The notes beneath the pieces were generated by a model. It was not told the origin of the DNA. It did not search any database and saw only the letters and a list, made by a program, of their open reading frames with translations. From contig JAEEKI010000011.1 of the NCBI GenBank assembly GCA_016282375.1, forward strand, positions 1-64,000: 64,000 nucleotides of DNA. Direction: 5' to 3'. This DNA comes from Caryophanales bacterium. Its GTDB lineage: Bacteria; Bacillota_I; Bacilli_A; RF39; UBA660. A program made the position numbers and the translations under genes. Of the stretch, positions 6,022-44,743 are shown one piece after another (within the stretch, counting starts at the first letter, position 1; each line of letters starts with the position of its first letter).

Positions 6022-7134
6022 ATGAAAGATAACCGTGAAAAAGTAGTTGTTAGAACTAGTATTATTAGCATAATCTCTAATATAACTTTAGCGGGATTTA
6101 AGGCATTCGTTGGACTTCTTGCTAATTCAATAGCAATCATATCTGATGCCGTAAATAATTTGAGTGATGCCTTATCTAGTATTATTACCATTGTAGGAAC
6201 TAAACTTGCTGGGAAAGCTCCAGATAAAAAACATCCATATGGTTATGGAAGAATAGAGTATATGACTTCGATGATTGTATCGGTAATCGTTTTGTATGCT
6301 GGTGTTACAGCCTTTGTAGAATCAGTTAAGAAGATTATTCATCCTGAAATAGCAGATTATAGTACCATAACATTAATTATCTTAATTGCTGGTATTATTG
6401 TTAAGTTTGCTTTGGGATTGTATGTTAAGAAAAAAGGTAAAGATGTTAATTCTGATTCATTAGTCGCTAGTGGGTCTGATGCCTTTAATGATGCTTTACT
6501 ATCACTATCGGTTTTAGCATCGGCGATTATCTATATGATATTTAAAATAAGTTTAGAAGCATATGTTGGTGTGCTATTATCTTTATTTATTATTAAAGCT
6601 GGTTTAGAACTAATTAAAGAGTCAATTGATAATATATTAGGCCTAAGAGTGGAAAGTAGTCTTGCAAAGTCAATTAAAAAAGAAATCTCGAAAGAAAAGA
6701 ATGTTCAAGGTGCATACGATTTAGTATTGCATGATTATGGACCTGATAAGTATTTAGGATCAGTTCATATTGAAGTTGCTGATACTTTGTCAGTTGCTGA
6801 GATTGACAAAATATCAAGAAGAATAACTAGAATTATCAAAGAAAAATATGGAGTAATATTACATACTGTCGGAGTTTATTCTGTAAATACTAAAGATAAA
6901 AAGATTACGGAAGCTAGAAAAGAAGTAAGTAGTATTGTCTTTGCTCATGAAGGAATACTTCAAATGCATGGCTTTTATTATGATGATGTCGAGAAAATAA
7001 TAAGTTTTGATATAATTATTGATTTTAAAGTTAAAGATCGTGAAGAATTATATAAAGAGATTTGTGATGAACTTCGCAAGAAATACAAAGGTTATACTTT
7101 TGATATAACATTAGATATAGATGTAAGTGATTAA
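6022..7134 (+). CDS. Cation diffusion facilitator family transporter
   Basis: LAGFKAFVGLLANSIAIISDAVNNLSDALSSIITIVGTKLAGKAPDKKHPYGYGR is the CDF signature. Confidence 0.9.
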   Translation: MKDNREKVVVRTSIISIISNITLAGFKAFVGLLANSIAIISDAVNNLSDALSSIITIVGTKLAGKAPDKKHPYGYGRIEYMTSMIVSVIVLYAGVTAFVESVKKIIHPEIADYSTITLIILIAGIIVKFALGLYVKKKGKDVNSDSLVASGSDAFNDALLSLSVLASAIIYMIFKISLEAYVGVLLSLFIIKAGLELIKESIDNILGLRVESSLAKSIKKEISKEKNVQGAYDLVLHDYGPDKYLGSVHIEVADTLSVAEIDKISRRITRIIKEKYGVILHTVGVYSVNTKDKKITEARKEVSSIVFAHEGILQMHGFYYDDVEKIISFDIIIDFKVKDREELYKEICDELRKKYKGYTFDITLDIDVSD

Positions 7135-7167: not shown

Positions 7168-8049
7168 TTGGTAATAAAAATGAAGAATAAAAGGTTGCGG
7201 ACAAAAGCGATATTTGATTTTTTAGGGACAGTTATAGTAATTTTAATTATCCTTTTTACAATTTTAATCTTATTTTTCGTAATAAATAAGGTAATAATTA
7301 GTAGACTAAGTTCGAATGAAGAAAATGGTTTTGATAGAAAAACATTTGACAAGGTACACGAGATAGATTATAGTGTATCTTCTGATTTTACATCTTTTTA
7401 TAATGATAAACAGTCAAGTCATACATATTACAATGATGAAAAAGGCGGAATTTTTTGTTGGTTTAGGTTTGAAAAATATGATAAAAAATAATATTTCTTT
7501 TGAAGAATGGTTTAATGAAAAGAGCACACCTAGTATTGTTAATATCGACTATGTTAGTAGTAAAATATCTAAAATTGTAAATAATGATATTGATGTTTAT
7601 TATAGAGATGGTGTAGATGAATTTAGTACCAATTATTATTATGGTTTTGAAACAACACATTACTATTATCTTTTAATTTATTATGTAAGAGATGAACTAC
7701 ATGGAGACAGAAATAATCATATATATTATACGACAAGGGAACAACTATAACAGCAATCTTTCCCCAAAAAGTAATAAATACCGCTTCAGGTAAAACGATA
7801 GTGGATGATTTAACAAGTGAAACTCCAGTTATGGAGATAATGCTAAATATGCAAGATTATGAAATTGAATCAGGTAGTGTCCATCAACATAAAATATATA
7901 ATTATGGTAAAGATTCTAATAATAATCTTTCAAAGGGCGCAGATTACATTGTATATGCAATGACAATTGTTCCTAAAAAAGAACTCATTGAAAGACATAA
8001 CAGAATGCAGCAATCAAGCTTTCAAGAAAAAGGAATTAGTTTAAATTGA
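7168..8049 (+). pseudogene. Frameshifted gene for a membrane-anchored protein of unknown function
   Basis: Three consecutive ORF pieces in frames 1, 2, 1 (7168-7491, 7373-7750, 7801-8049) read as one protein with shifts near 7440-7460 and ~7735. Confidence 0.55.
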
Positions 8050-8093: not shown

Positions 8094-8122
8094 TTGACTA
8101 TTTTGGCTTTTTGTGGTATAAT
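8094..8122 (+). promoter_or_regulatory. Promoter TTGACT-17-TATAAT
   Basis: TTGACT 8094-8099, 17-nt spacer, TATAAT 8117-8122, preceded by TG (extended -10). Confidence 0.8.
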
Positions 8123-8130
8123 GTCTAGCG

Positions 8131-8251
8131 TTGAAAGGGAGTAGTTCCCATAATGGTTTTTGGTTCGTCAATACGATATGATAAATATCCGGATCAAAAG
8201 AAGTAAAATGAACGAGACTTTCACACATTAGTGTGTGAGTCTCTTTTTTTT
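8131..8251 (+). promoter_or_regulatory. yybP-ykoY (manganese) riboswitch with overlapping terminator
   Basis: TGAAAG GGAGUAG ... CGUCAAUACG ... CCGG ... GAACGAGACUUUCA; P1 UGAAAG/CUUUCA; 3' strand is shared with terminator GAGACTTTCACACA-TTAG-TGTGTGAGTCTC-T8. Confidence 0.88.
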
Positions 8252-8281
8252 GATTTACACACATGAAAGGGGGAATATTTT

Positions 8282-8584
8282 ATGAAAAACAAAAAAGATT
8301 ATAGTGAAGGATTAGCTTTTTTTCAGGAGTTAATCGTATGTTATGGACTTGCCGCAGTATCCTTTGCAGTAATGTTTCTTTTAGGAGAATCAATAAATCC
8401 ACATGGCATTGAAGAGATTATAGAGAATCCAAAACTCAAGGAATTAATTTATACAATTGCTAACTATCTAAAGGCATGTCCAGAAGCAATTAGATATATC
8501 GGCTTTTTTCTTAGCGCTGCTTTTACATGTAGTTTTGCAATTACTCCGGTAGTTAATGCATCTGAATTGCTTCGTAAAAAATAA
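8282..8584 (+). CDS. Small (100 aa) membrane protein of unknown function under the Mn2+-type riboswitch
   Basis: Two hydrophobic segments (LIVCYGLAAVSFAVMFLLG and YIGFFLSAAFTCSFAITPVV); AAAGGGGG SD; no family recognised. Confidence 0.75.
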   Translation: MKNKKDYSEGLAFFQELIVCYGLAAVSFAVMFLLGESINPHGIEEIIENPKLKELIYTIANYLKACPEAIRYIGFFLSAAFTCSFAITPVVNASELLRKK

Positions 8585-8686
8585 TTACATCGCATGCACA
8601 TTTAATTTATACCGATTCTGATAATTTTGGGGAAGGCTAGAGAAATCTAGTCTTTTTTATGTTATAATTTAAATAGGATGTTGGTT

Positions 8687-9301: not shown

Positions 9302-9311
9302 GCCATTTTTA

Positions 9312-9336
9312 GACTAGATTGTTCTAGTCTTTTTTT
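9312..9336 (+). terminator. Intrinsic terminator GACTAGA/TCTAGTC + T7
   Basis: Hairpin plus T-tract immediately followed by TGTTATAAT. Confidence 0.8.
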
Positions 9337-15361: not shown

Positions 15362-15390
15362 TTGATAAATAATGGATTACATTATATACT
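15362..15390 (+). promoter_or_regulatory. Promoter TTGATA-17-TATACT
   Basis: Exact 17-nt spacing; duplicated at 17374-17402. Confidence 0.75.
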
Positions 15391-15409
15391 CATTATAGTA
15401 GGTGAGAAT

Positions 15410-17272
15410 ATGAAAAAGCAGAACACTATTATGATGATCATAACTGTGATAATCTTTTTATCTTTTGTGGCTTTTGCTACCTATGCGTACTTTGCAACCG
15501 GTAATTTAAATGTAATTAATGTAGCAAATGCTAATACAATAACGGAAACAAATAATATGGTATTTGATGTAATTGGGGGAGGTATGTCCCTTAATATAAC
15601 ATTAGCTAAGATGGCGGATGGAGCTGCTAATAATAATTTAGTAGCTATTTCTAATAATACGACCTTAACGGTTAATTTTACACCCAATACGGATTATAGT
15701 ATGATATGTACCTATGATATTGTATATGAATGGACAAGCAGTGATAAATATACTACGCATAGTTCAGGAGTTACAGATAAAGAGTTTACCATTCAAGCCT
15801 TTCAAACATATGTAGAAAATACAATTAATGGCGATGGTATGGTTACTCAGGAAACAGATTTATCAGCTTTAACATATAACAATAATAGTGTAACAATTGT
15901 AAGTGGAGCCCAAATATCAGGAACAGGGAACACAACTACTACCGCCGTATGGAATTTAATAAGTAGAGTTTATAATGTAAATGCGAGTCAAACAGCTTTA
16001 GAGGGAAAAAATTTTGTTGGTAAATTTAAGATAGCCAATGTCTCATGTGTAGCAGGTGAGGTTGAAACAACCGTTATAGCAAGTGGAAATGTTAATGAAA
16101 ATATCACCTGGACATTAGATGATAATGGCACTCTTAAAATAATGGGATCAGGAGAGATGCCAAGTTATAGTTTTAATGGTGCACCATGGTATGCAAATAG
16201 AAGCTCTATAGAAAGCGTTGAAATTGGAAATGGAATTACTTCGATTAGTAGTTATGCTTTTAATTATTGTAGTAGTTTAACATCCATAACCATTCCAAGC
16301 AGTGTAACAAGTATTGGTGCTTATGCTTTTCAAGGAGCAGGCCTAACTTCAATAACCATTCCAAACTTGGTAACATCATTGGAAGCAGGTGTGTTTTATA
16401 ATTGTAAACACTTAACAAGTGTCACGCTGCCAAGTAATATAACTACCATTAGACCAATGGCATTTTCTGGTTGTAGTAGTCTAACCTCAATAACCATTCC
16501 AAGTAGTGTAACAAGTATTGGTGATCTTGCTTTTCAATATGCAGGCCTAACTTCAATAACCATTCCAAACTCGGTAACATCAATTGGTGAACAAGTGTTT
16601 CAATACTGCAGAAATTTAACCACCGTAACGTTATCAAGCAATATGACGACAATCACTCGTAATGCATTTTATGGATGTAGTAGTTTAGAGTCAATAACCA
16701 TTCCAAGTAGTGTAACTACAATAGGCAATATGGCATTTTCTGGTTGTAGTAGTCTAACCTCAATAACCATTCCAAATACAGTGACCTCCATTGATGCTGG
16801 TGCCTTTTCAAATAGCAGTCTAACGTCTATAACCATTCCTGATACAGTAACATCATTGGGATCAAGTGTGGTATCAAGCTGCAAAAAATTAACAAGTGCC
16901 ACCTTGCCAAATACCATAACGACAGTCCCTGATAGCACATTTGATGGATGTAGTAGTTTAACATCGATAACCATTCCAAGCAGTGTAACAAGTATTGGCA
17001 GTTTTGCTTTTCAAGGAGTAGGCCTAACATCAATAACCATTCCAAGTGGTGTAACAAGTATTGGTAATTATGCTTTTCGAAATTCAGGTCTAACATCGAT
17101 AACCATTCCAAGTAGTGTAACAAGTATTGGCGGTAATGCATTCAGAAATTGTGCTTCTTTATCATCTGTTATATATAATGGTAATACATATACAACACAG
17201 TCTGGATTTACATCAGCATATGGAGGAACTTTAGGTTCAAATGTATTTACTGGTACTTCATTAGGAGAATAA
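15410..17272 (+). CDS. BspA-type leucine-rich-repeat surface protein with TasA/SipW-substrate-like N-terminus
   Basis: N-term MKKQNTIMMIITVIIFLSFVAFATYAYFATGNLN; tandem ~23-aa repeats LTSITIPSSVTSIGxxAFxxx. Confidence 0.85.
   Translation: MKKQNTIMMIITVIIFLSFVAFATYAYFATGNLNVINVANANTITETNNMVFDVIGGGMSLNITLAKMADGAANNNLVAISNNTTLTVNFTPNTDYSMICTYDIVYEWTSSDKYTTHSSGVTDKEFTIQAFQTYVENTINGDGMVTQETDLSALTYNNNSVTIVSGAQISGTGNTTTTAVWNLISRVYNVNASQTALEGKNFVGKFKIANVSCVAGEVETTVIASGNVNENITWTLDDNGTLKIMGSGEMPSYSFNGAPWYANRSSIESVEIGNGITSISSYAFNYCSSLTSITIPSSVTSIGAYAFQGAGLTSITIPNLVTSLEAGVFYNCKHLTSVTLPSNITTIRPMAFSGCSSLTSITIPSSVTSIGDLAFQYAGLTSITIPNSVTSIGEQVFQYCRNLTTVTLSSNMTTITRNAFYGCSSLESITIPSSVTTIGNMAFSGCSSLTSITIPNTVTSIDAGAFSNSSLTSITIPDTVTSLGSSVVSSCKKLTSATLPNTITTVPDSTFDGCSSLTSITIPSSVTSIGSFAFQGVGLTSITIPSGVTSIGNYAFRNSGLTSITIPSSVTSIGGNAFRNCASLSSVIYNGNTYTTQSGFTSAYGGTLGSNVFTGTSLGE
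16240..17150 (+). repeat. ~69-nt tandem LRR-coding repeats (gene 1)
   Basis: Recurring 'ataaccattccaagtagtgtaacaagtattggt'. Confidence 0.85.
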
Positions 17273-17295
17273 AATTCTTTATAATAATAAATAAG

Positions 17296-17317
17296 ACGGA
17301 TGAAAATCCGTTTTTTA
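17296..17317 (+). terminator. Intrinsic terminator ACGGAT-gaaa-ATCCGT-T6
   Basis: Hairpin plus T6. Confidence 0.75.
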
Positions 17318-17373
17318 ATTTGAATTTGAGAAACATCACAAGATTGCATTTCAATTATGGAAACATAATCATC

Positions 17374-17402
17374 TTGATAAATAATGGATTATATTATATA
17401 CT
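17374..17402 (+). promoter_or_regulatory. Duplicated promoter TTGATA-17-TATACT
   Basis: Same sequence and spacing as 15362-15390. Confidence 0.75.
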
Positions 17403-17421
17403 AATTATAATTGGTGAGAAT

Positions 17422-19821
17422 ATGAAAAAGCAGAACACTATTATGATGATCATAACTGTGATAGTCTTTTTATCTTTTGTAGTTTTTGCTACCTATGCGT
17501 ACTTTGCAACCGGTAATTTAAATGTCATTAATGTCGCAGCCTCTAATGTAATAACTGAGCAAAATAATATGGTATTTGATGTAATTGGGGGAGGTATATC
17601 CATTAATATGTCGTTAGCTAAGATGGCGGATGGCGCTGCTAATAATAATTTAGTAGCTATTTCTAATAATACGACCTTAACAGTTAATTTTACACCCAAT
17701 ACGGATTATAGTATGATATGTACGTATGATATCATTTATGAATGGACGAGCAGTGATAAATATACTGCTCATAGTCCAGGCGTAACAAATAAAGAGTTTA
17801 CGATTCAAGCCTTTCAAACATATGCGGAAAATACGGTTAATGGCGATGGCGTTGTTACTGAGGAAACAGATTTATCAACATTAACATATACCAATAATAG
17901 TGTAACAATTGTTAGTGGAGCCCAAATATCGGGAAGTGGTAGCACAACTAGTACAGCCGTATGGAACTTAATAAGTAGAGTTTATAATGTATATGCGAGT
18001 CAAACAGCTTTAGAGGGAAAAAACTTTGCAGGTAAATTTAAGATAGCCAATGTCTCATGTGTAGCAGGCGAGGTTGAAACAACCGTTATAGCAAGTGGAA
18101 ATGTTAATGAAAATATCACCTGGACATTAGATGATAACGGCACCCTTAAAATAATGGGATCAGGAGCTATGCCAAATTATAGTTCTAGTGGTTCACCATG
18201 GTATGCAAATAGAAACTCTATAGAAAGTGTTGAAATTGGAAATGGTATTACTTCGATTGGCAAATACAGTTTTAACGGTGAGTCAAATTTGACATCTGTA
18301 ACAATTCCAAGTAGTGTAACAGGTATTGGTGATTATGCTTTTCAAAATACAGGCCTAACATCGATAACCATTCCAGATACCGTAACTACAATTGGAAACG
18401 CTGTTTTATCTAGTTGCAAAAATTTAACTTCTGCAACGTTACCAAGTAATATAACAACAATACCGACTTCTTTATTTTGGGGTAGTAGTAGTTTAACAAA
18501 CTTTACTATTCCAAGTAGTGTAACAAGTATTGGTACAAATGCTTTTCTAAATACAAAACTAACATCGATAACCATTCCAAGTAGTGTAACAAGTATTGGC
18601 AATTATGCTTTTGCAAATACAGACCTAACATCGATAACCATTCCAAGTAGTGTAACAAGTATTGGTAATTATGCTTTTCAAGATACAGGCCTAACATCGA
18701 TAACCATTCCAGATACAGTAACTTCACTAGGAACCAATGTTTTATATTATTGCAATAATTTAACTTCTGCAACGTTACCAAGTAATATAACAACAATACC
18801 TAAATCAACATTTGAAGGTTGTCGTAGTTTAACAAACTATACTATTCCAAGTAGTGTAACAAGTATTGGTAATAATGCTTTTCGTTCCTCAGGTTTAACG
18901 TCAATAACCATTCCAAGTAGTGTAACAAGTATTGGTGATTATGCTTTTTTTACTACAGGCCTAACATCAATAACCATTCCAAGTAGTGTAACAAGTATTG
19001 GCAATTCTGCTTTTGCTTATACAGGCCTAACATCGATAACCATTCCAGATACCGTAACTTCACTTGGAACCGGTGTTTTGGGTGGCTGCGAAAATTTAAC
19101 TTCTGCAACGTTACCAAGTAATATAACAACAATACCTAAACAAACATTTAATGGTTGTCGTAGTTTAACAAACTATACTATTCCAAGTAGTGTAACAAGT
19201 ATTGGTGATTATGCTTTTCGAGAGACAGGCCTAACTTCGGTAACCATTCCAAGTAGTGTAACCACAATAGGTACGTATGCTTTTTCTGGAAGTAGTCTAA
19301 CTTCGATAACTATTCCTGATACAGTGACAATTCTTGGAACCTATGCTTTTCAAAACTGTAAGAGTTTAACAAACGCAACGTTGTCAAGCAATGTGACAAC
19401 AATCCCTAATTATGCATTTGATGGTTGTAGTAGTTTAACAAACTGTACTATTCCAAGTAGTGTAACTAAGATTGGTGATTATGCTTTTCGAAATACAGGC
19501 CTAACATCGATAACCATTCCAGATACCGTAACTTCACTTGGAACCGGTGTTTTAAGTGGCTGCAAAAATTTAACTTCTGCAACGTTACCAAGTAATATAA
19601 CAACAATCCCTAATTATGCATTTGATGGTTGCAGTAGTTTAACAAACTGTACTATTCCAAGCAGTGTAACAAGTATTGGTAATGTTGCATTCAGAAATTG
19701 CTCTTCTTTATCATCTGTTATATATAATGGTAATACATATACAACACAGTCAGGGTTTACATCAGCCTATGGTGGAACTTTAGGTTCAAATGTATTTACT
19801 GGTACTTCTTTAGGAACATAA
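17422..19821 (+). CDS. BspA-type leucine-rich-repeat surface protein, tandem paralog
   Basis: Near-identical N-terminus and C-terminus (SSVIYNGNTYTTQSGFTSAYGGTLGSNVFTGTSLG) to the upstream gene, more internal repeats. Confidence 0.85.
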   Translation: MKKQNTIMMIITVIVFLSFVVFATYAYFATGNLNVINVAASNVITEQNNMVFDVIGGGISINMSLAKMADGAANNNLVAISNNTTLTVNFTPNTDYSMICTYDIIYEWTSSDKYTAHSPGVTNKEFTIQAFQTYAENTVNGDGVVTEETDLSTLTYTNNSVTIVSGAQISGSGSTTSTAVWNLISRVYNVYASQTALEGKNFAGKFKIANVSCVAGEVETTVIASGNVNENITWTLDDNGTLKIMGSGAMPNYSSSGSPWYANRNSIESVEIGNGITSIGKYSFNGESNLTSVTIPSSVTGIGDYAFQNTGLTSITIPDTVTTIGNAVLSSCKNLTSATLPSNITTIPTSLFWGSSSLTNFTIPSSVTSIGTNAFLNTKLTSITIPSSVTSIGNYAFANTDLTSITIPSSVTSIGNYAFQDTGLTSITIPDTVTSLGTNVLYYCNNLTSATLPSNITTIPKSTFEGCRSLTNYTIPSSVTSIGNNAFRSSGLTSITIPSSVTSIGDYAFFTTGLTSITIPSSVTSIGNSAFAYTGLTSITIPDTVTSLGTGVLGGCENLTSATLPSNITTIPKQTFNGCRSLTNYTIPSSVTSIGDYAFRETGLTSVTIPSSVTTIGTYAFSGSSLTSITIPDTVTILGTYAFQNCKSLTNATLSSNVTTIPNYAFDGCSSLTNCTIPSSVTKIGDYAFRNTGLTSITIPDTVTSLGTGVLSGCKNLTSATLPSNITTIPNYAFDGCSSLTNCTIPSSVTSIGNVAFRNCSSLSSVIYNGNTYTTQSGFTSAYGGTLGSNVFTGTSLGT
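18280..19690 (+). repeat. ~69-nt tandem LRR-coding repeats (gene 2)
   Basis: Recurring 'aacatcgataaccattccaagtagtgtaacaagtattggt'. Confidence 0.85.
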
Positions 19822-42130: not shown

Positions 42131-44743
42131 ATGGAGGATAATATGTTTTATAATGAAGATATTAAAAAGATATATGAAAAGTTGAATTCAACCTCTAAAG
42201 GATTAAGTAATAGCGAAGCCCTTAAACGGTTAGAAATAGATGGTAAAAATATTCTTCCTAAAGAAAAACGTCCAAGCATTTGGATGCTTTATTTAAAAGA
42301 GATTATATCTCCGATTGAAATTATTCTGATAATTACAGTTATTGTGTCTTTTTTTGCAGGTGAAACACTTGATGCTCTAGTTATTCTCTTTATTATTCTA
42401 GTTGATACAATTATGGGAACATATCAAGAGAATAAAGCCCTAAAATCGGCTGAAAGTTTAAATAGTTTATTAAAAAATAAGAGTTTGGTTTTGCGGGACG
42501 AAAAAAAGAAAACCATCGACTCTGAAAATGTTGTTCTAGGCGATATTATTTTCCTAGAAAGTGGAGATAAGATTCCCGCAGATGCTAGATTAATTGAAGT
42601 AAATAACTTACAAGTTGATGAATCGGTTTTAACAGGGGAAAGTTTGCCGGTCAATAAGACTATCGAGATTATTAATAGTGAAGTGTCAATATCAGAACGT
42701 AAAAATATGGTATATGCTGGTTGTAATGTTACATTTGGTCGGGCAAAAGCTATTGTCGTAGCAACGGGAATTAATACTGAGATTGGTAAAATTTTTAAGC
42801 AAGTTACGAATACTAAGCAAGAAAAAACTCCTTTGACTAAGAAGATAGATAAGTTTACAAAACAAATAAGTGTTATTATTCTAATTATTGCTTTTATATC
42901 CACTATTATCCTTTATGTTAGTGGTTATCCATTTAATAGCATTTTCTTAGCGGTGGTAGCTTTGGCCATTTCCGCGATGCCGGAAGGATTACCACTTGCT
43001 TTAACTTTGGCATTGACAATTGCAGCAAATAAAATGAGTAAAAAGCATGTTATTGTCAAAAAACTTAATTCTGTCGAAGCCTTGGGAAGTTGTACGGTAA
43101 TTGCTAGTGATAAGACAGGTACTTTAACACTTAATGAACAAACGGCTCGTAAGATTGTTTTAAAAAATCAGAATATTGTCGAAGTAACAGGAACTGGTTA
43201 TAACGATGATGGTGAGTTAATCATTAATGATGAAAAAGATGTTCCATTAGTTACTAAAATAATTAATTTATGTGCCCTAAATAACGAAGCTTATTTTGCT
43301 CGTAAGGAAGACGAATTTGTTTATCATGGTGATTCGATTGATGTGGCATTCTTAGCCTTAAAATCTAAATTTAATACAAATATTAATTATAAAACAGTTA
43401 AAATGATTTCCTATGAGTCTGAAAAACAATTTTCAGCGGTCTTTTATAAAACAGAAAAAGGTTTAAAATGCACAGTTAAAGGCTCAATTGAAAAAGTTAT
43501 GAGTTTTTCAAAGAAAGATCATTATTTATTTGAAATGAATGAAGATTTATCTAAAGAAGGTTATCGGGTCATTGCTGTTTGTGATGGATATGTAGATAGC
43601 ACGAAAGAAAGTGATATTCATGATTTGGATTTTTTAGGCTTAGTAGCTTTTATAGACCCTGTACGGGAAGAAGTAAAAGATTCAATTAAAGAATGTCAAA
43701 AAGCTGGTATTAAAGTTATGATGATAACCGGTGATCATCCAAGTACGGCTTTAGCAATTGCTAAAGAATTGGATATAGCTTCCTCTGCAAAAGATGTTAT
43801 AACAGGTATGGAATTAGAGAATGCCTTTGAAAAAGGGGAAGAATATTTTGATAAGTGCATTAAAGATAAAAAGGTCTTTTCTAGAGTTTCTCCGACTGAT
43901 AAGTTAAATATTGTCGAGTCTTTGAAAAGAAACGGGGAATTTGTTGCCGTAACAGGTGATGGTGTTAATGATGCTCCAGCTATCAAGGCAGCAAATATTG
44001 GTGTTGCTATGGGAAGTGGAACCGATATTGCTATTGATACGGCTGATATGATTATTACAGATGATAATTTTGCATCCATTGTATCTGGTGTCAAAGAAGG
44101 AAGAATTGCTTATGCTAATATCCGTAAAATTATTTTGTTCTTGCTTTCATGTGGACTTGCGGAAATCCTGTTCTATCTTTTAGCTGTGGCTCTTGGTTAT
44201 GAATTACCTTTAGTAGCTATTCAGCTTTTATGGCTAAATGTTGTTACGGATGGACTTCAAGATATTGCTTTATCTTTTGAACGGGGTAGTAAGGGAATTA
44301 TGCGTCATTCTCCTCGTAAGACTAGCGAATCTATTTTTGATAAAGAATTAGCCTTTGAAATAGCTTTGTATGGTATTACAATTGCTTTCATGGTATTTGC
44401 GGTATGGAAATATCTAATGGATAAGAACGTCGAGTTGTTATTAGCTCGAAGTATTATTATGACTATTATGGTTTTTATTCAAAATATGCATGTTTTGAAT
44501 TGTCGCAGTGAAACAAGAAGTGTTTTTAAACAATCATTAAGAAATAATCCGTTAATTTTTATATCTGTGTTTGGATCCATTCTATTACAGATAATTGTTA
44601 TCAAAGTACCATTTTTATCCGAAATATTAAAAATAAATAATTTAGCATTGAACACTATTGCTATTTGCTTTGTTTATTCATTAGTCTTAATAACTATTGC
44701 GGAATTATACAAGATGCTAAATAAGTATTTTAGAAAGGATTAA
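42131..44743 (+). CDS. Cation-transporting P-type ATPase (Ca2+-type)
   Basis: VLTGESLPV, SDKTGTLTLNE, MITGDHPSTA, VAVTGDGVNDAPAIKAANIGVAMG. Confidence 0.95.
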   Translation: MEDNMFYNEDIKKIYEKLNSTSKGLSNSEALKRLEIDGKNILPKEKRPSIWMLYLKEIISPIEIILIITVIVSFFAGETLDALVILFIILVDTIMGTYQENKALKSAESLNSLLKNKSLVLRDEKKKTIDSENVVLGDIIFLESGDKIPADARLIEVNNLQVDESVLTGESLPVNKTIEIINSEVSISERKNMVYAGCNVTFGRAKAIVVATGINTEIGKIFKQVTNTKQEKTPLTKKIDKFTKQISVIILIIAFISTIILYVSGYPFNSIFLAVVALAISAMPEGLPLALTLALTIAANKMSKKHVIVKKLNSVEALGSCTVIASDKTGTLTLNEQTARKIVLKNQNIVEVTGTGYNDDGELIINDEKDVPLVTKIINLCALNNEAYFARKEDEFVYHGDSIDVAFLALKSKFNTNINYKTVKMISYESEKQFSAVFYKTEKGLKCTVKGSIEKVMSFSKKDHYLFEMNEDLSKEGYRVIAVCDGYVDSTKESDIHDLDFLGLVAFIDPVREEVKDSIKECQKAGIKVMMITGDHPSTALAIAKELDIASSAKDVITGMELENAFEKGEEYFDKCIKDKKVFSRVSPTDKLNIVESLKRNGEFVAVTGDGVNDAPAIKAANIGVAMGSGTDIAIDTADMIITDDNFASIVSGVKEGRIAYANIRKIILFLLSCGLAEILFYLLAVALGYELPLVAIQLLWLNVVTDGLQDIALSFERGSKGIMRHSPRKTSESIFDKELAFEIALYGITIAFMVFAVWKYLMDKNVELLLARSIIMTIMVFIQNMHVLNCRSETRSVFKQSLRNNPLIFISVFGSILLQIIVIKVPFLSEILKINNLALNTIAICFVYSLVLITIAELYKMLNKYFRKD

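Follow-up and report, generated by a model that had tools for sequence, protein, structure and literature searches.

What would a riboswitch of a manganese-sensing class control when the only gene behind it encodes a small membrane protein of no recognised family? RNAs of the yybP-ykoY type sense Mn2+ and usually lie upstream of Mn exporters (MntP, TerC, UPF0016, P-ATPases), and the Rfam family RF00080 includes L. lactis yybP/yoaB, E. coli mntP and alx, and S. pneumoniae mgtA. In the window, by which we mean the whole 64,000-nucleotide stretch of DNA analysed here, a sequence-only reading had proposed such an element in front of a 100-aa protein and had suggested that this protein may be a new Mn homeostasis protein or an exporter subunit. 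From 8094 to 8251 the order is promoter, yybP-ykoY-type aptamer and mutually exclusive terminator, followed by a ribosome binding site and an open reading frame. The features of the locus are as follows:

8094–8122, + strand: sigma-A-type promoter TTGACT-17-TATAAT with extended -10 (TG), 11 of 12 consensus matches
8131–8223, + strand: yybP-ykoY-type aptamer, supported by the held-out covariance model R1 and by covariation in 16 of 17 pairs
8132–8137, + strand: 5' strand UGAAAG of the P1 switch helix, paired with 8218–8223; helix 1 covaries
8138–8144, + strand: 5' strand GGAGUAG of L1, a sarcin-ricin-like loop, invariant in alignment A1; role according to PMC6754395
8157–8164, + strand: 5' strand of P3.1, paired with 8193–8200 (covariance model and covariation)
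8166–8175, + strand: 5' strand of L3, CGUCAAUACG, of which CGUCA (8166–8170) is invariant in A1; role of the conserved A according to PMC6754395
8175–8189, + strand: P3 apical hairpin, 8175–8179 with 8185–8189; helix 3 covaries
8189–8192, + strand: 3' strand of L3, CCGG, read from the sequence
8213–8218, + strand: 3' strand of L1, CGAGAC, invariant in A1, yet also a part of the search pattern
8214–8251, + strand: intrinsic terminator, arms 8214–8226 and 8231–8243, U-run U8 at 8244–8251
8252–8262, + strand: third arm, complementary to the terminator 3' arm at 8231–8241
8266–8273, + strand: Shine-Dalgarno sequence AAAGGGGG, read from the sequence
8282–8584, + strand: 100-aa orphan membrane protein (codon score, hydropathy, low-confidence AF2 model, no homologues)
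8628–8659, + strand: closing terminator of the one-gene unit, 3' of the 100-aa frame

The layout which had been proposed from the letters alone was borne out: the promoter lies where it was read, the P1 pairing UGAAAG/CUUUCA is accurate base by base, and the entire P1 3' strand (8218–8223) lies within the 5' arm of the terminator, making the two structures mutually exclusive. In the metal-free minimum free energy fold the terminator is formed and P1 is absent (-35.4 kcal/mol, z = -4.0). The 100-aa frame is, as claimed, the sole gene behind the switch, because its own terminator at 8628–8659 closes the unit. Most promoter-linked copies of this RNA in the window's family carry a promoter of like sequence at an equal distance to the aptamer. 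Further downstream, around a 207-aa frame, two alike terminator/promoter junctions (8634–8658 and 9311–9335) are 80% identical, and the same 16 nucleotides, TTTTTTATGTTATAAT, follow both.

Assignment to the class could not be read from Rfam directly. The cmsearch check with RF00080 that had been suggested gave no match in the window, either at the gathering cut-off or at E ≤ 10, and none in the window's genome. In the control run the same model missed the validated E. coli alx and gave mntP 41.6 bits against a cut-off of 45; since validated E. coli riboswitches fail too, the missing match refutes nothing. The best Rfam match of the window RNA was SSRC10 (RF02617), with 20.9 bits over the full length including the terminator, which is below the cut-off of that family. 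SSRC10 itself combines a terminator with a yybP-ykoY core, its consensus GGGAGUA / CGUCAAUACG / CGAGAC being as in the window; it differs in being curated as a streptococcal sRNA. Its best match at locus L036, a weak one, overlaps an MntP leader. SSRC10 has probably been catalogued as an sRNA while being the leader of a Mn riboswitch.

We searched 296 genomes of the class with the core pattern GGAGTAG..CGTCA..CGAGAC, which was present in 25 of them, compared with two for a reversed control pattern. Twenty of the RNAs found in this way in other genomes, the window being excluded, were aligned (A1) and used to build the covariance model R1. On the window R1 gave 70.1 bits (E = 8e-16), the sole match in the 64 kb and in the genome. 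Elsewhere, in other families, the genes behind R1 matches encode P-type cation ATPases, Na_Ca_ex antiporters, Mntp and Na/Pi-type transporters, and also a CitMHS/ArsB-type transporter and an SPFH protein. Within 12 kb R1 detected, weakly, the validated E. coli alx (18.3 bits) and mntP (16.3 bits). A second model, R2, built only from the window's family with the window included, recovered MntP leaders (Pfam Mntp) in other families at 63, 48 and 43 bits. In A3, which aligns 47 copies found in the window's family, 93.7% of cells form standard pairs and 16 of 17 pairs show changes on both sides, while slid controls reached 31–48%; helices P1, P3.1 and P3 are supported by this covariation. The earlier class claim is thus upheld by the core sequence, by covariation and by the models' detection of Mn-exporter leaders, and on these comparisons the window riboswitch is real and its place in the yybP-ykoY class safe, Mn2+ being its likely ligand. 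A large set of RNAs of this type goes unseen at the present Rfam thresholds.

The metal-binding core is complete in the window copy, comprising GGGAGUAG, CGUCA, CCGG and CGAGAC. The L1 internal loop is made by GGGAGUAG (8137–8144) and CGAGAC (8213–8218), and is invariant in A1. The L3 loop (8166–8175 and 8189–8192, CGUCA...ACG / CCGG) is near-identical to that of E. coli alx, CGUCAUUACG/CCGG, and its A8170 we take, from knowledge of crystal structures, to be the counterpart of the invariant metal-binding adenosine. Like the RF00080 riboswitches, the window RNA has the L1 and L3 core with this adenosine, and one covariance model detects both; it differs from them in scoring under the Rfam cut-off and in that P4 is not apparent, although P4-like hairpins occur in several relatives. 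A short P2, CCA-UAA-UGG, is possible. With P4 not apparent the junction may be three-way, a version reported for mgtA (PMC9495176).

In L. lactis, P1.1 is stabilised by Mn2+ and its 3' strand otherwise joins the terminator, which yields an ON switch (PMC11087558). The ion is held by L1 and L3 phosphates and by N7 of the invariant adenosine, and mutation of this adenosine abolishes the docked state (PMC6754395). The window RNA resembles the L. lactis type in that its P1 switch helix overlaps the terminator, and since it shares these parts and their arrangement, read-through induced by Mn2+ is what one would naturally predict. At high cytoplasmic Mn2+ the ion would dock L1 (GGAGUAG/CGAGAC) onto L3 (CGUCAAUACG/CCGG), and docking would stabilise P1 (8132–8137/8218–8223), block the terminator, and let polymerase read through so that the 100-aa protein is made. 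At low Mn2+ the P1 3' strand would be taken into the terminator and transcription would end at 8244–8251. We infer Mn2+ as the ligand, the ON direction in vivo and the role of the protein discussed below.

The window RNA differs further from RF00080 riboswitches in having a third complementary arm after the U-run. Segments 8231–8241 and 8252–8262 can pair over 11 bp into a hairpin whose loop holds the U-run (-16.1 kcal/mol), and none of 300 shuffles was as good. The third arm cannot decide termination, because it lies downstream of the U-run, and its hairpin is possible only in read-through mRNA, where it likely serves as a 5' stabilising or translation-related structure. It is present in 26 of the 35 non-transporter (promoter-linked) copies and in 2 of 10 transporter-type ones (p ≤ 0.05 against shuffles), a comparison in which we set the two groups from the target genes and in which related copies are not independent.

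The gene behind the switch has gene-like codon usage (codon score 0.262, compared with 0.30–0.34 in its neighbours; reached by none of 1000 shuffles). Its product has two long hydrophobic segments by hydropathy, at about 15–35 and 70–91, and a single-sequence AF2 model places low-confidence helices at 4–38 and 73–98; with pLDDT of 63 the model was too weak for a fold search to be worthwhile. The protein matched no family in Pfam, NCBIfam or PHROG, those of Mn2+ exporters (MntP, TerC, UPF0016, P-ATPase, CDF) included. Homologues were found neither in 60 relatives nor in GTDB contigs or IMG/VR. Across 338 genomes of the family there were four weak matches at E ≤ 0.01, as against about 3.4 expected by chance, and three of the four contain in-frame stops. 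The suggested check of whether other copies of the protein also follow such an RNA found no homologue in other RNA-bearing genomes, and the protein bears no similarity to other frames near RNA copies. By these searches (338 family genomes, GTDB, IMG/VR) it is an orphan. Its hydrophobic helix cores are without acidic residues, therefore nothing in them suggests a transporter. E. coli MntS is a small protein under manganese control, repressed by MntR and shorter than the 100-aa protein. The window protein is likewise small and predicted to be controlled by manganese status, but it lies behind a riboswitch and is predicted to be a membrane protein with two helices.

What this protein may belong to is suggested by the other copies of the RNA. 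Such RNAs are present in 36 of 386 genomes of the window's family, which are uncultured gut Bacilli, with a maximum of six per ~1.1-Mb genome. The 48 assigned targets (downstream proteins with a Shine-Dalgarno sequence, identified on Pfam and NCBIfam evidence) form 24 sequence clusters. Only nine are Ca/Mn-type transporters (four P-ATPases and five Na_Ca_ex antiporters); the others include seven GEH lipoprotein-like, five PGDYG-like, four HAH lipoproteins, two AdoMetDC-like, two deoxyribosyltransferase-like and two HflK/SPFH proteins, as well as NfeD+SPFH, peptide deformylase and the window protein. There was no Pfam match at 0.01 in 21 of the 30 frames scanned behind non-transporter copies. 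Many cassette-led genes encode exported or membrane proteins. The GEHxxxx-motif proteins, often lipoprotein-like, stand at seven loci (L051, L082, L084, L086, L091, L092, L112), and the HAHxY-motif lipoproteins, a second uncharacterised family, at four (L055, L068, L113, L114). At locus L090 two riboswitch copies (1323–1407 and 1930–2015) lie in tandem about 600 bases apart, each before one gene, one of them SPFH.

The window RNA is nearest to the copies before an AdoMetDC-like gene (75%) and NfeD+SPFH (68%), and only 48% identical to the ATPase leaders of its own genus. In genome G614 two cassette copies are identical at 192 of 198 positions with unrelated genes behind them, and in G548 at 186 of 192 with different genes behind; G475 has a third near-identical pair and G593 a tandem pair. 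The duplicated cassettes begin to diverge at one end shortly before the -35 region and at the other near the start codon. Near-identical copies leading unrelated genes within one genome are direct evidence that the cassette is copied whole before new genes. Amplification together with the promoter, and an orphan two-helix protein as target, again set the window RNA apart from the RF00080 riboswitches. In the literature that could be searched we found no report of such dispersal, and no papers that link Mn riboswitches to flotillin, to NfeD or to small membrane proteins.

As the cassette stands before many unrelated genes, the 100-aa protein most likely acts in a metal-response regulon as an envelope component, not as a transporter. 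We are largely confident that the locus is a Mn2+-responsive yybP-ykoY ON switch, a dispersed promoter-linked cassette governing one small membrane protein of most likely this kind. The wider proposal, that in this one family the Mn2+ riboswitch is a dispersible promoter-aptamer-terminator-RBS cassette with a third arm which wires a multi-gene metal-responsive regulon of envelope and cytosolic genes, largely uncharacterised and including that of the window protein, we regard as evenly poised.

The 100-aa protein might instead be a dedicated Mn homeostasis factor, that is a small exporter, an exporter subunit or a modulator of the ATPase at 42131 or of the CDF protein at 6022, which we consider possible but doubtful. 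The RNA in front of it is the sole Mn-type riboswitch detected in the genome and has no other target, and the gene of a CDF cation efflux transporter (6022–7134; top-scoring models general CDF, below the MntE cut-off) lies about 1 kb upstream; in two same-genus genomes, too, a CDF gene lies ahead of the RNA, which there drives a P-type ATPase. The window has a P-type Ca/Mn-type ATPase of its own (42131–44743), 54% identical to the riboswitch-led ATPase of a same-genus genome, but no riboswitch was found before it even with filters off, which weakens the exporter-subunit idea. Against a homeostasis factor stand also the lack of a family match, the hydrophobic helices without acidic residues, and the lack of a 100-aa homologue in other RNA-bearing genomes. 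The exporter or exporter-subunit inference drawn in the sequence-only reading gained no sequence support, and is weakened because the cassette in this family mostly precedes non-transporter genes, with near-identical copies before unrelated genes within one genome; a dispersed metal-responsive regulon fits the data better. In the same part of the window, at 7168–8049 just upstream of the riboswitch, three overlapping or adjacent frame fragments with gene-like codons in different frames represent a broken gene or assembly frameshifts. Farther on, at 15362–19821, two large proteins contain extended stretches of leucine-rich TSITIPSSVTSIG repeats that look BspA-like by eye.

It seems rather improbable that the aptamer has changed its ligand, to another divalent metal or to Mn/Ca dual sensing, so that the regulon is not one of manganese. 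The full canonical core of the window copy argues against such a change; L3 variants (CAACA, UUCAAUAAC) do occur in several family copies, the targets are unlike Mn genes, and the window target too is no known Mn gene. Diverse yybP-associated genes that fit Mn2+ sensing poorly may be a sign of variants specific for other ions, which PMC7266159 expects, and the related streptococcal mgtA RNA binds and responds to Ca2+, as cited in PMC9495176.

Improbable as well is a chance landing, in which a mobile or duplicated cassette was inserted before an orphan gene that has nothing to do with it, leaving a regulation that is neutral or in decay. Near-identical copies before unrelated genes, a protein known from one genome only and the broken neighbouring gene at 7168–8049 would suit it, but promoter, core, P1/terminator overlap, Shine-Dalgarno sequence and frame are all intact with normal codon usage in the latter, and target families recur across genera (the GEH, PGDYG-like and HAH groups given above). 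Finally, an unrelated look-alike attenuator or sRNA, for which the failure of RF00080 and the SSRC10 match might speak, is disfavoured to the point of being very hard to uphold, given the covariance model score, the covariation, the cross-detection of MntP leaders and the yybP-ykoY core of SSRC10 itself with its overlap of an MntP leader.

Mn2+ riboswitches have mainly been described as local exporter controls. If the dispersed regulon is true, the riboswitch would act as a global regulator instead of giving an exporter local feedback, and Mn2+ riboswitches would count as a regulon device, with copies of one cassette standing before some two dozen unrelated gene families. Such a regulon would bear on the question whether variants of yybP respond to ions other than Mn2+ (PMC7266159), and it would place several uncharacterised protein families in a context of metal stress.
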